Part shown: one piece after another, positions 22,737-35,620 of the stretch
Position numbering within the stretch: the stretch's first letter is position 1
Layout: every line of letters begins with the position of its first letter
Assembly (NCBI GenBank): GCA_027038555.1
Contig: JALVVX010000013.1
Coordinates: 1-42,583 of the forward strand
Direction: 5' to 3'
DNA from: Nautiliaceae bacterium
GTDB lineage: Bacteria; Campylobacterota; Campylobacteria; Campylobacterales; Nautiliaceae
DNA length: 42,583 nt
Made by a program: the position numbers and the translations under genes
Notes under the pieces: generated by a model
What the model was told of the DNA's origin: nothing
The model's input: only the letters and a program-made list of their open reading frames with translations
Database searches by the model: none

Positions 22737-23651
22737 TTAAAAATGATTTTCGGGACAGATTGAATAAAATCTGCCCCTTTTTGTAACGGCAAATATTGTA
22801 AGAGGCGTTCTTGTAATTTTAGCAATGTTTTGAATTGCTTTTAAATTTTTTTTTGGAAAAGTAAAAAGTATTTCAAATTCTTCCCCGCTGCATCCTCCGT
22901 TTTTATCTATATTTTTCAAAAACTGATAATTTACATTTGAAATTTTTGAAATTCTTTCAAGTTCTTTAAAAAGCCCGTCACTTATATCACAAGCCGCGGT
23001 TATAAATTTTGAGGCTTTATAAAAGAATTTATCTCTCAAAACTGGTTTGATTAATTTTGAGTTTTTATTTATTTTATTAAACCTTAGCGCTCTTATCAAA
23101 TCTCTTTTTACATTACCGATATCACCTGTAAAAGCCACATATTCGTTGATTTTTGCTTTTCTAAATACAGGTTTTTTTGTATATCCTATATGTGTTACGG
23201 AAATTGCTATTTTATCACTTCTAATTGTGTCGCCGCCTATTATTTCATAACCATACTCTTTTGAGGCTTTTTTAAAGCCTTCGGCAAGTTTTTTAATTTC
23301 TTTTAAACTGAGCGTTTTAGGAAAAGCTACATTCAAAACGGCATATTTCGGCTTTGCATTCATTACTATCATATCGCTTATGTTTACAAGTGAAGCCTTA
23401 TAACTTATTTCATCCAAATCAAACCATTCTTTTTTAAAATGTATATTTTCAAAAAAAGAGTCGCTTGCAATTACCTCTTTTTCGCCTCTTTTCCACCTCT
23501 TCCCTTTTTCCTCCTCCCTTTTTCCCGCTTCCTGCTTCCCGTTCCCTGCTCTCTGCTTCCTACTCCCTACTTTCTCTTCCCACTCAATTACCGCCCCGTC
23601 ATCTCCAATATATTTTGATTGGAACTGATTTATAAAAAATTCTTCTTTCAT
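22737..23651 (-). CDS. thiL: Thiamine-monophosphate kinase with repeat-derived insertion
   Basis: Phosphorylates thiamine monophosphate to the cofactor diphosphate (PurM-like fold). 304 residues. Motifs: IGDDGAVI near 15-22, SDSFFENIHF near 63-72 (family STDTLVEGVHF), VNISDMIVMNAKPKY, IIGGDTIRSD, and CDISDGLFKEL. Residues about 25-58 are a Gly/Arg/Lys/Glu-rich low-complexity stretch without counterpart in ordinary ThiL, encoded by a degenerate heptamer repeat (see separate feature). The ATG at 23651 overlaps the stop of the upstream PAS gene as ATGA and is preferred over an upstream in-frame codon. Whether the enzyme tolerates the insertion is unproven, but the frame and all motifs are intact. 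Confidence 0.88.
   Translation of the reverse strand: MKEEFFINQFQSKYIGDDGAVIEWEEKVGSRKQRAGNGKQEAGKREEEKGKRWKRGEKEVIASDSFFENIHFKKEWFDLDEISYKASLVNISDMIVMNAKPKYAVLNVAFPKTLSLKEIKKLAEGFKKASKEYGYEIIGGDTIRSDKIAISVTHIGYTKKPVFRKAKINEYVAFTGDIGNVKRDLIRALRFNKINKNSKLIKPVLRDKFFYKASKFITAACDISDGLFKELERISKISNVNYQFLKNIDKNGGCSGEEFEILFTFPKKNLKAIQNIAKITRTPLTIFAVTKRGRFYSICPENHF
23475..23585. repeat. Degenerate 7-bp tandem repeat inserted in thiL
   Basis: On the plus strand this is a C/T-only tract that falls into register at period 7, consensus close to GCTTCCT, for about a dozen units with one or two mismatches each. On the coding strand it is purine-rich and yields residues such as GSRKQRAGNGKQEAGKREEE. Three heptamers make 21 bases, so the array can grow without shifting frame. 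Surrounding thiL shows ordinary composition. Confidence 0.85.
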
Positions 23652-24157
23652 AACTGCTCTAAAACTTCTTTTTCCCAATCTTTGAGATTAGGCTTAGCAT
23701 AAAGTTCCGCTTTTCTTATTTGTCTGTAAAGCTTATCGGCTTCTTTTATTTCATCTCTTGAAGGTTCACGTCTTACAGCCACATAACCGGCAATCTTTTC
23801 TGGTTGATTATAAATTGTATTACCGTATTCATCAATTGGGTCAACTTGTACGATAACCCAATAATATTTACCGTCTTTTCTAAGATTTCTTACCATTCCT
23901 TCCCAATGCTCTCCTCTTTGAATTGTATCCCACATATCCCTAAAAGCGGCTTCTGGCATTAAAGGATGTCTTACGATACTGTGCGGTTTTCCTATAAGTT
24001 CGTTTTTTGAATATTTTGTCATATCTCGGTAAGCTTTGGATGCAAATGTAATTATACCTTTGGTGTCTGTCCTCGTTATTAAAGCCCTCGCATCCAAACC
24101 TTCTTCTTTAAAAGTGGCTTCAATATCGAGGGGTTTTACATTCGGTTTTACTGCCAT
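23648..24157 (-). CDS. Stand-alone PAS sensor protein (Aer/CetB-like), second copy
   Basis: 169 residues, paralogous to the PAS protein at 21.5 kb: same GLDARALITRTDTKGIITFASK opening split, IVRHPLMPEAAFRDMW and RKDGKYYWVIVQVDPIDEYG. Likely an FAD-binding redox sensor of the Aer/CetB class. The start at 24157 was chosen because AAAGGA lies 6-7 bases upstream; an upstream in-frame codon has no such site. It sits 10 bases after the second FeS subunit of the fumarate reductase cluster, suggesting co-expression with an electron-transfer enzyme. Confidence 0.82.
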   Translation of the reverse strand: MAVKPNVKPLDIEATFKEEGLDARALITRTDTKGIITFASKAYRDMTKYSKNELIGKPHSIVRHPLMPEAAFRDMWDTIQRGEHWEGMVRNLRKDGKYYWVIVQVDPIDEYGNTIYNQPEKIAGYVAVRREPSRDEIKEADKLYRQIRKAELYAKPNLKDWEKEVLEQL

Positions 24158-27417: not shown

Positions 27418-27479
27418 ATTTAAGTGAAAAGTGTAAAGTATAAAATGAAAAATTTCACTTTTCACTTTTCATTTTTAAC
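27418..27479. repeat. Palindromic heptamer repeat between tRNA-Arg and sdhA
   Basis: From 27422 the sequence is in period 7: AAGTGAA-like units, turning at about 27450 into ACTTTTC-like units (the complement). The two arms are imperfect reverse complements of about 28 bases each, so the transcript from either side can form a long hairpin; it may end both the tRNA and sdhA transcripts. The array abuts the sdhA stop codon. Confidence 0.75.
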
Positions 27480-29186
27480 TTAGTATTTTCTTTCAGCTGG
27501 TTCATAAATGCTGATATCCACTTCACCTTTTTGATAATCAAAGCTTCCGTCAGAATTTTTACTAATCATTGAGTGATACAAAAATTCTTCGTCATTTCTT
27601 TTTGGATAATCGTCTCTGTAAAAACTACCGCGAGACTCTTTTCTTTGAAGCGATGCATACGCTAAAACATCCGCAATTTCAAGCAGATTGAAAAATTCAA
27701 GCGTTGATTGCAAATCTAAATTGAATACTTTTGATTTATCCTCAACTCCGAGATTTTTATGAGCTCTCTCAATCAAATCTTTTAGCTTATTATATCCTTC
27801 TTGCATTTCAGATTCGTTTTTAAATACACCGAAATGTTTAAACATAATTTCACCAAGTTCGTTTCTCATATCACCAAGTGTTTCTTTGCTTTCTTTATTC
27901 ATAAGTTCAGTAATAAATTTAACATCATCTTCAAGTTTTCCTTCTCCACCCTCGGCAAAATCAGTCCCTTCTGCATATCTTACGGCTTCTTTACCTGCTA
28001 CGTTTCCAAATACTACAATGTCAAGAAGACTGTTTCCTCCAAGTCTGTTCGCACCGTGAACACTCACACATTGTGCTTCACCTGCGGCATATACACCTTC
28101 AATAGGAGTTTCACATTTAACATTTGTATGGATTCCACCCATTGCGTAGTGAGCTGTCGGCTTAATAGGAATAGGTTCTTTTATAGGGTCTATTCCTTCA
28201 AAATCAATTGCAAGTTCCCTAATTTGCGGAAGTCTCTCTTTAATTTTTTCAGCTCCAAGATGAGTCAAATCAAGATGAACGTATTCTCTGCCTTCATCAT
28301 CTTTAAATCCTCTGCCTTCTCTGATTTCTTGCATAATGCTTCTACTTACCAAATCCCTTGGACCAAGTTCCATCTTCTCAGGTGCATATTTGCTCATAAA
28401 TCTCTCACCCTTGTTGTTTATAAGGTGTCCTCCTTCACCTCTTGCGGCTTCACTAACCAAAATAGCCGATTTTCTAAGACCAGTCGGGTGAAATTGTAAA
28501 AATTCCATATCTTTAAGAGGAAGTCCTGCCCTAAGTGCAGCCGCAGTCCCATCTCCCGTACAACCAAGAGCATTTGAAGTATAACCCCAATAAATTCTGC
28601 TGTGACCGCCTGTTGCTAAAATAATGGCTTTTGTTTTAATAAGTTTAACTTCTCCTGTTGCAATATTTATAGCCGTTACACCTATTGCCCTTTTCCCGTC
28701 ATGAACGATATTTAACATAAACCATTCATTTAAGAAATTAACACCTTCTTTAATACATTGCTCATATAAAGTATGAAGCATTACATGCCCCATTTTATCC
28801 GCACTGTAACATGTCCTGTCTTTACTTGCCCCGCCAAAAGGTCTTTGTGCGATTTTACCGTTTCCAAGTCTACTAAAAGGCACACCCATATGCTCCATAG
28901 CCCTGATAATCTTAGGAGCTTCATAACACATATATTTTACAGCTTCCTGGTCTGCTAAATAATCGCTTCCTTTGATTGTATCGAATGTATGAAGCTCTTC
29001 GTTATCTGTCGGGTCAACATTCGCAAGTGCCGCATTGATACCTCCCTGTGCGGCTCCCGTATGAGACCTTGTAGGATAAACTTTTGTAAGTACTGCAATA
29101 TTTAAATCTTTATTCTCTTTAACCGCGCTTAAAGCCGCATAAAGTCCGGCTCCGCCTGCACCGACAATTAAAACGTCAACTTTCAT
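27480..29186 (-). CDS. sdhA: Succinate dehydrogenase/fumarate reductase flavoprotein subunit
   Basis: 568 residues. FAD-binding [13 protein letters not shown] at 9-21, SHTGAAQGG with H42 for covalent flavin, LQFHPTGL and HY-MGGI ([13 protein letters not shown]) active-site segments, [17 protein letters not shown] near residue 378, and the ARxxxxLxxxAD-like capping and C-terminal domains with [13 protein letters not shown]. There is no twin-arginine signal, unlike the periplasmic MfrA of Campylobacter/Wolinella, so the catalytic head is cytoplasmic. In an rTCA autotroph it would reduce fumarate to succinate. ATG start close to its promoter. Confidence 0.95.
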
Positions 29187-33820: not shown

Positions 33821-35620
33821 TTAAATAAAACTTACCGGGTCAATATCTATCTTCATATCTTTATCTATACACGGGAAAATCAGTTTTTGAAGATTTTTAC
33901 CTTTAAGTAGGACCTGGTATCTGTATCTGTTTTTTAGTTTAAAAAGCGGGGCTTCGCCAAAACCTACAATCTCTTCCCTCTCACACACACACTCAAGAAA
34001 TTTTTTCATTTTAAGATATGCTTTTTCTTTTATACGGTCGCTAAATTCTATTTTTGCCATCCTTACAAACGGAGGATATAAAAGCTCTTTTCTTAAATTT
34101 ATCTCTTCATCAAAAAACTCTTCATAACTCCTGTCAAAAAATTCAGGATTAAGTGTCTGGATTATAACTTCACCGTCTTCTTTCCTCCCAGCTCTTCCCT
34201 CAACCTGCCTTGCCAAAGCAAATGCTCTCTCTGAGGCTCTGAAATCAGCACTGTTTAGCAAAAAATCAATATCCAAAACAACTGCAAGCTTTACATCCGG
34301 ATAGTCATGACCTTTGCTAAGCATCTGAGTACCTACTAAAATATCAATCTCTTTATTTGCAAAACTTTTAAGTAGTTTATCAATTCTTGTTTTTGAAGTT
34401 ATTACATCCCTGTCAAATTTTTCAATTCTTGCATCAGGGAAAACCTCCTCTAATCTCTCTTTAAGCTCACTTGTGCCGATTCTCTCATTCAAAAAATCTT
34501 CACTGCCGCAGTATTCGCAAGCTTTTGGAATTCTTGATGTGTAATTACAATAATGACAAACAAGAGCTCTTTTGTCTTTATGAACACTCATAGCCACATC
34601 ACAGTAAGGGCATTTTACGGCTTTGCCGCAATTTGCACAAATCATATACTTAAAATGTGCTCTTGTCGGAATAAAAATAATTACCTGTTTTTTGCTTTCG
34701 ATAGTATTTTTTATTTTTTGAAGGATGAATTCATTAAAACTATCTGTAAAATATCTTTTTTTAGAAGTATTGAAAAAAGTTCCTTTGAGTCTGAAATGAG
34801 GAAATTTATATAAATCACTCACAAGCGGAGTCGCACTTCCAAGCACCACCTTTGCATTATATGTTTTTCCAAAGACAATTGCTAAATCTTTTGCATTGTA
34901 TTTTGGAGCCATTTCTGATTTATAAGAATCGTCATGTTCTTCATCTACTATAATAAGTCCGATATTTTCAAAAGGTAAAAATAGAGCACTTCTTGCTCCT
35001 GCTATAATTTTAATCTTACCTTCATTGATACCGTTTAATATTTTTTCTTTTTTCTTTTTTGTTATTTTGCTGTGCCATATCTCTATCAAATCCCCGAAAT
35101 GCTTTTTAAGCCTATGCTCCATTTGTGAAGTAATTGCAATTTCAGGAAGTAAAAAAATCACTTCTTTTCCTGAATTTATAGTCTTCTCAATTAGTTTTAT
35201 ATAAATTTCCGTCTTCCCGCTCCCGGTATCACCAAAAAGTATGCTAACATCTTTATTTTCTAAAAATTTAAGTGCTTCTTGTTGTTTATCTGAAAGATTT
35301 ATATCAGTTTTAATATCTAACTTTTCACTTTTAACTTTGCACTTTTCTCTTATATAAAAAAGCCCCGCCGCTTCACCGATACTGCACAGATAATATTTTG
35401 AAATAAATTCAATAATTTTAAATTTTTTCTCAGAAAAAGAAGTGATTTTTTTTATTACAGGTTTTGTATCAAACGGAGGTTTTTGTACAACTTTTACCAC
35501 CAAACCAAGAGCGCTTTTGCTTTTTATAGGCACTTCAACAACATCGCCTTTTTTTAGTCTTAGTTCTGAATGATAAGTAAAAATATTTGGAGTACTAAGA
35601 AGAGCTATTTCATAGTACAT
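33821..35620 (-). CDS. priA: Primosomal protein N' (replication restart helicase PriA), short form
   Basis: Reloads the replisome at stalled forks. 599 residues, shorter than E. coli (732), as usual in Campylobacterota. N-terminal DNA-binding domain (1-60), helicase with Walker A GDTGSGKT (130-137), DEEHD box, zinc-binding cysteines ([14 protein letters not shown] and VCHYC...CEYCG), motif V/VI ([25 protein letters not shown]). Residues about 90-104 ([15 protein letters not shown]) in the linker before the helicase are encoded by a heptamer repeat. ATG shares a base with the upstream pilin stop (TAATG). Confidence 0.95.
35313..35354. repeat. Heptamer tandem repeat inside priA
   Basis: Six 7-base units in strict register on the plus strand with consensus ACTTTTC (units at 35320, 35327, 35334, 35341 differ by 0-2 bases). 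The 42-base length equals 14 codons, preserving the reading frame. The unit is the same as in the palindromic repeat at 27422-27479. Confidence 0.75.

Follow-up and report, generated by a model that had tools for sequence, protein, structure and literature searches.

Heptamer array in the ThiL loop of a Nautiliaceae bacterium: a probable genic member of a family-wide class of degenerate repeats

The thiL locus and other arrays in the window

The window, that is, the whole stretch of 42,583 nucleotides analyzed here, carries the thiL and priA genes, each with a heptamer array in frame, and a third, intergenic array between them (Table 1). The identity of ThiL (thiamine-phosphate kinase) is backed by a match to the NCBIfam equivalog model NF004354 at 338.4 bits against a cut-off of 204. 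Its translation contains a block rich in Gly, Arg, Lys and Glu between the GDDGAVI and ASDSFF segments, which a preliminary description of this DNA had held to be absent from ordinary ThiL proteins. Comparison with solved structures confirms this: in the phmmer alignment to 1VQV/3C9R, query residue 34 pairs with residue 34 of the 1VQV chain and query residue 67 with chain residue 37, so that 1VQV has a turn of 2 residues where the window protein has about 32. Most ThiL relatives can be aligned only from residues 54-71 onwards, some of them with a short, separate N-terminal piece. A single-sequence AF2 model of ThiL reached a mean pLDDT of 35.5 and was left unused.

Table 1. Genes and repeat arrays, with positions in the window unless a locus is named
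Feature	Position	Strand	Basis
thiL (thiamine-phosphate kinase)	22740-23678 (ORF 22737-23678 with stop)	minus	NF004354 match and ORF
Inserted loop of ThiL, residues 35-66 of the 313-aa ORF	23481-23576	minus	phmmer and family comparison
Purine-rich proximal half of the tract, period 11/14	23478-23525	minus	TRF rows 23473-23501, 23496-23525
Period-7 array, AGGAAGC/AGTAGGG-like coding-strand unit	23521-23585	minus	lag-7 test and TRF
AGTGAAA-type array followed by its inverted copy	27419-27480	not assigned	intergenic
priA (primosomal protein N')	33821-35620	minus	NF004069, 831 bits, cut-off 767; ORF
In-frame AGTGAAA-type array, PriA linker	35318-35351	minus	TRF, lag-7 score, orthologue alignment
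Octamer arrays	L034 140-226, L037 3827-3886, L047 13301-13352, L302 1441-1491

The DNA encoding this block had been described as a pure C/T tract, which is wrong, since purines make up 87% of the coding strand in the loop, and as falling into a 7-base register with consensus GCTTCCT (AGGAAGC on the coding strand), which stands for the distal half of the tract and fails for the proximal one. As had been predicted, the autocorrelation at lag 7 exceeds that of shuffled sequence. The distal array reaches a lag-7 identity of 0.655, whereas dinucleotide shuffles give 0.388 and none of 5000 comes as high; TRF reports period 7 here (23522-23580) as well as period 21 (23532-23585). For the tract as a whole (23478-23585) the two values are 0.564 and 0.411 (6 of 5000), with additional peaks at lags 14, 21 and 28. 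The proximal half, which lacks the lag-7 signal (0.463 against 0.446 in shuffles), is perhaps a degenerate continuation of the array. Because the DNA has period 7, the peptide has a period of 7 residues (GSRKQRA GNGKQEA GKREEEK GKRWKRG), and the lag-7 excess in this ThiL also holds against synonymous codon shuffles (0.51 vs 0.40, p=0.004).

Aligned ThiL proteins from the family agree with the expectation that an in-frame heptamer array should be absent or different in relatives. The accompanying idea that length would change in steps of 21 bases has to be rejected: among 18 family members the loop measures 7, 10, 11, 12, 15, 16, 21, 35 or 41 residues, and few of the pairwise differences are multiples of 7. 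A 21-base register is seen here just as a 7-residue period in the peptide, which any 7-nt array would yield because 7 and 3 are coprime, and any net length that is a multiple of 3 retains the frame. The longer loops differ in sequence between members, and several of them are periodic at 7 with another unit. AAAATGG-like units make up the loops of G006 (AAAATGGAAAATGTAAAATG, lag-7 identity 0.68) and G013 (GAAAAATGGAAAATGAAAAATGG, 0.79), an AAAATGG-type unit that of G009 (0.55) and a GAAGAGA-type unit that of G004 (0.58); the last of these genomes, the closest relative found, also has a long block, but of other sequence. Other members have short, non-periodic loops.

The priA array lies in the linker ahead of the helicase part of the protein. 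In G005 this linker holds a ThiL-like block of roughly 35 residues (VGNREKEEGNRKQGEGKREQKA...), and in G009 the same place is taken by WKMDNGKCKIDNETLKIKN; neither repeat is present in the PriA linker of genomes from other families in the orthologue alignment. The priA match of G013 (L321) contains 3 stops, apparently near the linker that bears arrays in relatives, and appears to be either a split gene or a match read in the wrong frame. The intergenic pair of arrays begins directly after tRNA-Arg(CCT) and precedes the end of a convergent flavoprotein gene, where the inverted pair could serve as a hairpin terminator.

Abundance and recurrence of heptamer arrays in the family

Heptamer arrays are abundant in the family, their units are related yet differ between species, and they lie in frame in many housekeeping genes, where they recur at the same loops. 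In stretches of three genomes sampled without regard to content, we counted 22 lag-7 arrays per 357 kb in the window genome (G000) and 18 and 25 per 200 kb in the other two; third-order Markov shuffles gave none, and loci totalling 161 kb in genomes outside the family gave 4. Neighbouring lags yielded few arrays, except for 13 octamer arrays in the window genome, and lag 7 kept the top rank at three thresholds. The octamer arrays, of the GGATGGGT/GGATGAGT type, occur in the window genome and in G005, often beside heptamer arrays; the samples of G009 and G013 contained no lag-8 arrays at the main threshold.

The distribution of single units points in the same direction. Exact (AATGGAR)3 was found in 7 of 8 family genomes as opposed to 1 of 290 others in the phylum, and the reversed pattern had no match within the family. 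(The corresponding control for AGTGAAA is invalid, since reversing this unit gives back the same cyclic repeat.) With one mismatch allowed, (AATGGAR)3 is present in 17 of 20 family relatives, and in none of G010, G015 and G019; at this tolerance, too, the family had no match to the reversed pattern. Outside the family, G044, from another family of the order, is the sole genome with many AATGGAR arrays (25 one-mismatch matches), for which an independent burst or transfer is possible. Within the family, only the window genome and G005 have the ThiL-type unit, the latter with 32 matches, while exact (AGGAAGC)3 can be found in many bacterial phyla. That the heptamer would be dispersed and spread through the genome, as first suggested from thiL alone, is borne out both by the six places of the ThiL-type unit (thiL and five more) and by the array count of the window genome. 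Twelve of the 22 arrays in this sample are genic even though 95% of it falls in ORFs of 80 aa or longer, which amounts to a depletion in coding DNA.

Recurrence at fixed positions is also seen in QueA, TrxB, Dxr and MurE, all of them identified by NCBIfam models, in each of which orthologue alignments show one loop with units that differ by species; outside the family, lag-7 identity at the same loops is 0.09-0.39. The QueA loop reads KWKMENGKWKI in the window genome (AATGGAA units), LRMESGEWRN in G004 (GGAGAAT units), VKSEKSKLKN in G005 and VKSKKLKVKS in G001, and its length is nearly constant across the compared genomes. The KWKMENGKWKI peptide derived from AATGGAA arrays resembles, we presume, designed beta-hairpins. 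Because the TrxB loop is hardly longer than in outgroups, it represents sequence replacement, not a clear insertion. NCBIfam models also identify RNase HII, GalE and ThiE of G009 as array hosts, as well as HypF of G005, which contains a ThiL-like block.

Several further, putative hosts were named solely by reading the sequence: arrays lie in MurG, HsdS and one formate-dehydrogenase-like gene of the window genome and in Mfd of G013, and AlaS-like (L358) and RecG-like (L355) genes of the window genome have WRMENGE-type inserts. A compound array of direct and inverted heptamers is found in ThiE both in the window genome (L353) and in G009, a member of another genus (L053 15133-15223), and the two look as though they occupy one and the same site.

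Reading frame and DNA-level sharing of units

Period-7 repeats are expected to be kept out of coding sequence, 7 not being divisible by 3. Genes can host 7-mer arrays because the two numbers are coprime, and one cyclic heptapeptide is thus read in all three frames: NGEWRME for AATGGAG, NGKWKME for AATGGAA and SRKQEAG for AGCAGGA. The latter two units are free of stops on both strands, and AGTGAAA and AGTAGTG contain stops on the purine strand. Among the arrays, 23 of 31 with stop-free units are genic, against 9 of 31 others (Fisher p=0.0008), a bias that arises partly by construction, since a stop in the array would end the ORF. Where units of the stop-containing kind do occur in genes, they are altered at the critical position: TGT or TGC replaces the expected TGA in the AGTGAAA-type arrays of MurE and PriA, and two ThiL units phased for TAG read CAG. 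That every frame yields the one stop-free heptapeptide may be the reason that genes tolerate a period coprime with 3.

Some of the periodicity is maintained in the DNA itself, since in array loops synonymous-codon shuffling lowers lag-7 identity from 0.584 to 0.489, whereas no other lag shifts by more than 0.035 and control segments taken from these genes lack any excess. Given that the shuffled loops still retain an identity of 0.49, amino-acid selection for hairpin-like KxKxENGKWK segments may contribute to the period. Units from different loci are also more similar to each other (0.646) than random genomic heptamers (0.530, sd 0.008), and they are partly genome-specific, with 8 of 2000 label permutations reaching the observed value. 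A universal ARY core was considered and rejected as a common feature of the units: it is present in 96% of them against 72% of random heptamers, a modest difference, and AGAGATG breaks the rule.

More specific than similarity between units is the ordered run AATTGAG-AATGGAG-AGTGGAG, which occurs at six separate loci of the window genome in constant order and with unrelated flanks; the chance of such constancy, computed post hoc, is (1/6)^5. Some loci translate the run as RIENGEWR and another as LRMESGEWR; since more than one frame is used, what the loci share is the DNA. Shared k-mers between arrays exceed the null at k=21 and 24, but not at 28, in a set for which some loci had been preselected for shared runs, and we give this comparison no weight.

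Origin of the arrays and relation to known repeats

Taken as a whole, these data make it probable that the ThiL block is a genic member of the family-wide degenerate heptamer arrays, amplified or copied at the DNA level and tolerated in loops. Slippage or unequal copying inside arrays, combined with the copying of short segments between loci, would make and renew them, and selection would weed out arrays that introduce stops or disrupt the reading frame or the fold. A stop-free unit is open wherever it lands; all that it needs is an array whose net length is a multiple of 3, in a loop or turn that tolerates it, of which the tight turn of ThiL would be an example. The ThiL block itself is then most likely a tolerated, exposed and charged loop without specific function. 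Array turnover, copying and its timing are what we infer from one genome per species, and copying between loci in particular is supported but not proven. Only tentatively do we propose the stronger version, in which a DNA-level process copies array segments between loci, overwrites existing arrays and so keeps inserting and re-typing frame-independent heptapeptide loops in essential enzymes; were it true, a simple repeat would continually provide new protein segments across the genome, hairpin-like ones such as that of QueA included.

The foremost alternative, which we regard as a real possibility short of being the expected outcome, is local replication slippage alone, with arrays growing independently in each gene and units shared through base composition and a polymerase preference for slippage by 7 nt, an idea reported for Mrazek 2007. 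It would fit the over-representation of heptamers in many bacterial genomes and its link to polymerase contact length, as set out in PMC4692102 and PMC4679880. Natural hairpin motifs such as ENGKW could likewise seed AATGGAA units, and the outgroup-like length of the TrxB loops agrees with this; yet the likeness of units from different loci far exceeds that of random genomic heptamers, and slippage confined to each gene sits poorly with variant units running in the same order at six loci that have unrelated flanks. A dedicated mobile or templated element, in which an enzyme adds or copies arrays as selfish cargo in the way proposed for Rickettsia palindromic elements, would account for the burst at family level, the in-frame arrays in many unrelated core genes, the inverted pairs and the dispersed ordered segments. 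We nevertheless consider it unlikely, as neither fixed ends nor target duplications nor a linked enzyme came to light and the units form a cloud of related variants instead of one conserved element.

We give still less credence to the ThiL block as an extension under selection for function, contributing for instance to heat stability or protein contacts, with the DNA repeat incidental to it. The frame is kept and several members of the genus have charge-rich loops, but the block is missing from most ThiL proteins of the family, neither its length nor its sequence is conserved even within the genus, and its lag-7 excess survives synonymous shuffling. An assembly or sequencing artefact is hardly credible for an uninterrupted thiL ORF with an intact family match, in spite of the 51 contigs of the window genome, given that the same class of array is present in the single-contig genomes G008, G011 and G014.

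The preferred reading, of family-wide arrays tolerated in loops, builds on features that are already known one by one: heptamer repeats exist in bacteria and sometimes lie in genes (Nostoc, Beggiatoaceae), and in-frame repeat inserts are known from the Rickettsia palindromic elements. Heptanucleotides are the commonest class of long repeats in many bacterial genomes (Mrazek 2007, as cited in PMC4679880 and PMC4692102). They share with the family arrays a 7-nt unit, tandem arrangement and dispersal, whereas the latter are very degenerate, comprise many related units per genome and are often in frame at recurrent loops of core genes. The heptamers of Xanthomonas and Nostoc (GGGAATC and GGGGA(C/T)T; Rehm 2015, PMC4692102), 68% of them intergenic in Nostoc and the rest genic, are similar in their degeneracy, in some inverted pairs and in sites shared by relatives that vary in length and sequence. 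They are of the G-quadruplex type, however, with four units preferred, as opposed to AT-rich purine units without GGG runs as the main ones in this family. The likeness to heptamer repeats of other bacteria, cyanobacteria among them, that had been pointed out for thiL is supported; the cyanobacterial short tandemly repeated repetitive (STRR) sequences are alike in having a heptamer unit and in their dispersal.

Among in-frame elements, the Rickettsia palindromic elements, of about 150 bp, have entered unrelated metabolic genes time and again as in-frame fusions (reviewed in PMC10969869), much as the arrays are found in frame in ThiL, PriA, QueA, Dxr, MurE and others; instead of such a conserved element, the family has 7-mer arrays whose units are diverse and whose flanks are unrelated. 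PARCEL elements are 25-residue repeats in ORFs of unassigned function (PMC2996958), and here too a dispersed DNA repeat encodes a periodic peptide, in our case from 7-nt arrays in core enzymes. In the open literature searched, no account came up of heptamer inserts in core enzymes that switch their unit and return at the same loops, and the Nautilia profundicola genome paper does not mention such repeats. Heptamers that recur in core enzymes, at the same loops and with units differing between species, provide a natural series for testing how arrays originate and spread. They also advise caution in annotation, insert-rich loops in these proteins being probably repeat-derived and not functional domains.

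The TAACTGA direct repeats of Beggiatoaceae, Cyanobacteria and Bacteroidetes (MacGregor 2015, PMC4679880) lie mainly just upstream of start codons and, when in ORFs, mostly at protein ends. They resemble the family arrays in being dispersed and sometimes placed in ORFs, with stops in one orientation limiting their genic placement, but the family arrays have other units, and neither TAACTGA nor its rotations appear among the consensus units of 69 sampled arrays. As with MacGregor's upstream arrays, some heptamer arrays of the window genome lie at gene starts: two of them (L341 and L343, in C25 and C48) end at a likely start codon (GTGGAGAATG), where the repeat would supply a GGAG ribosome-binding site before the ATG.
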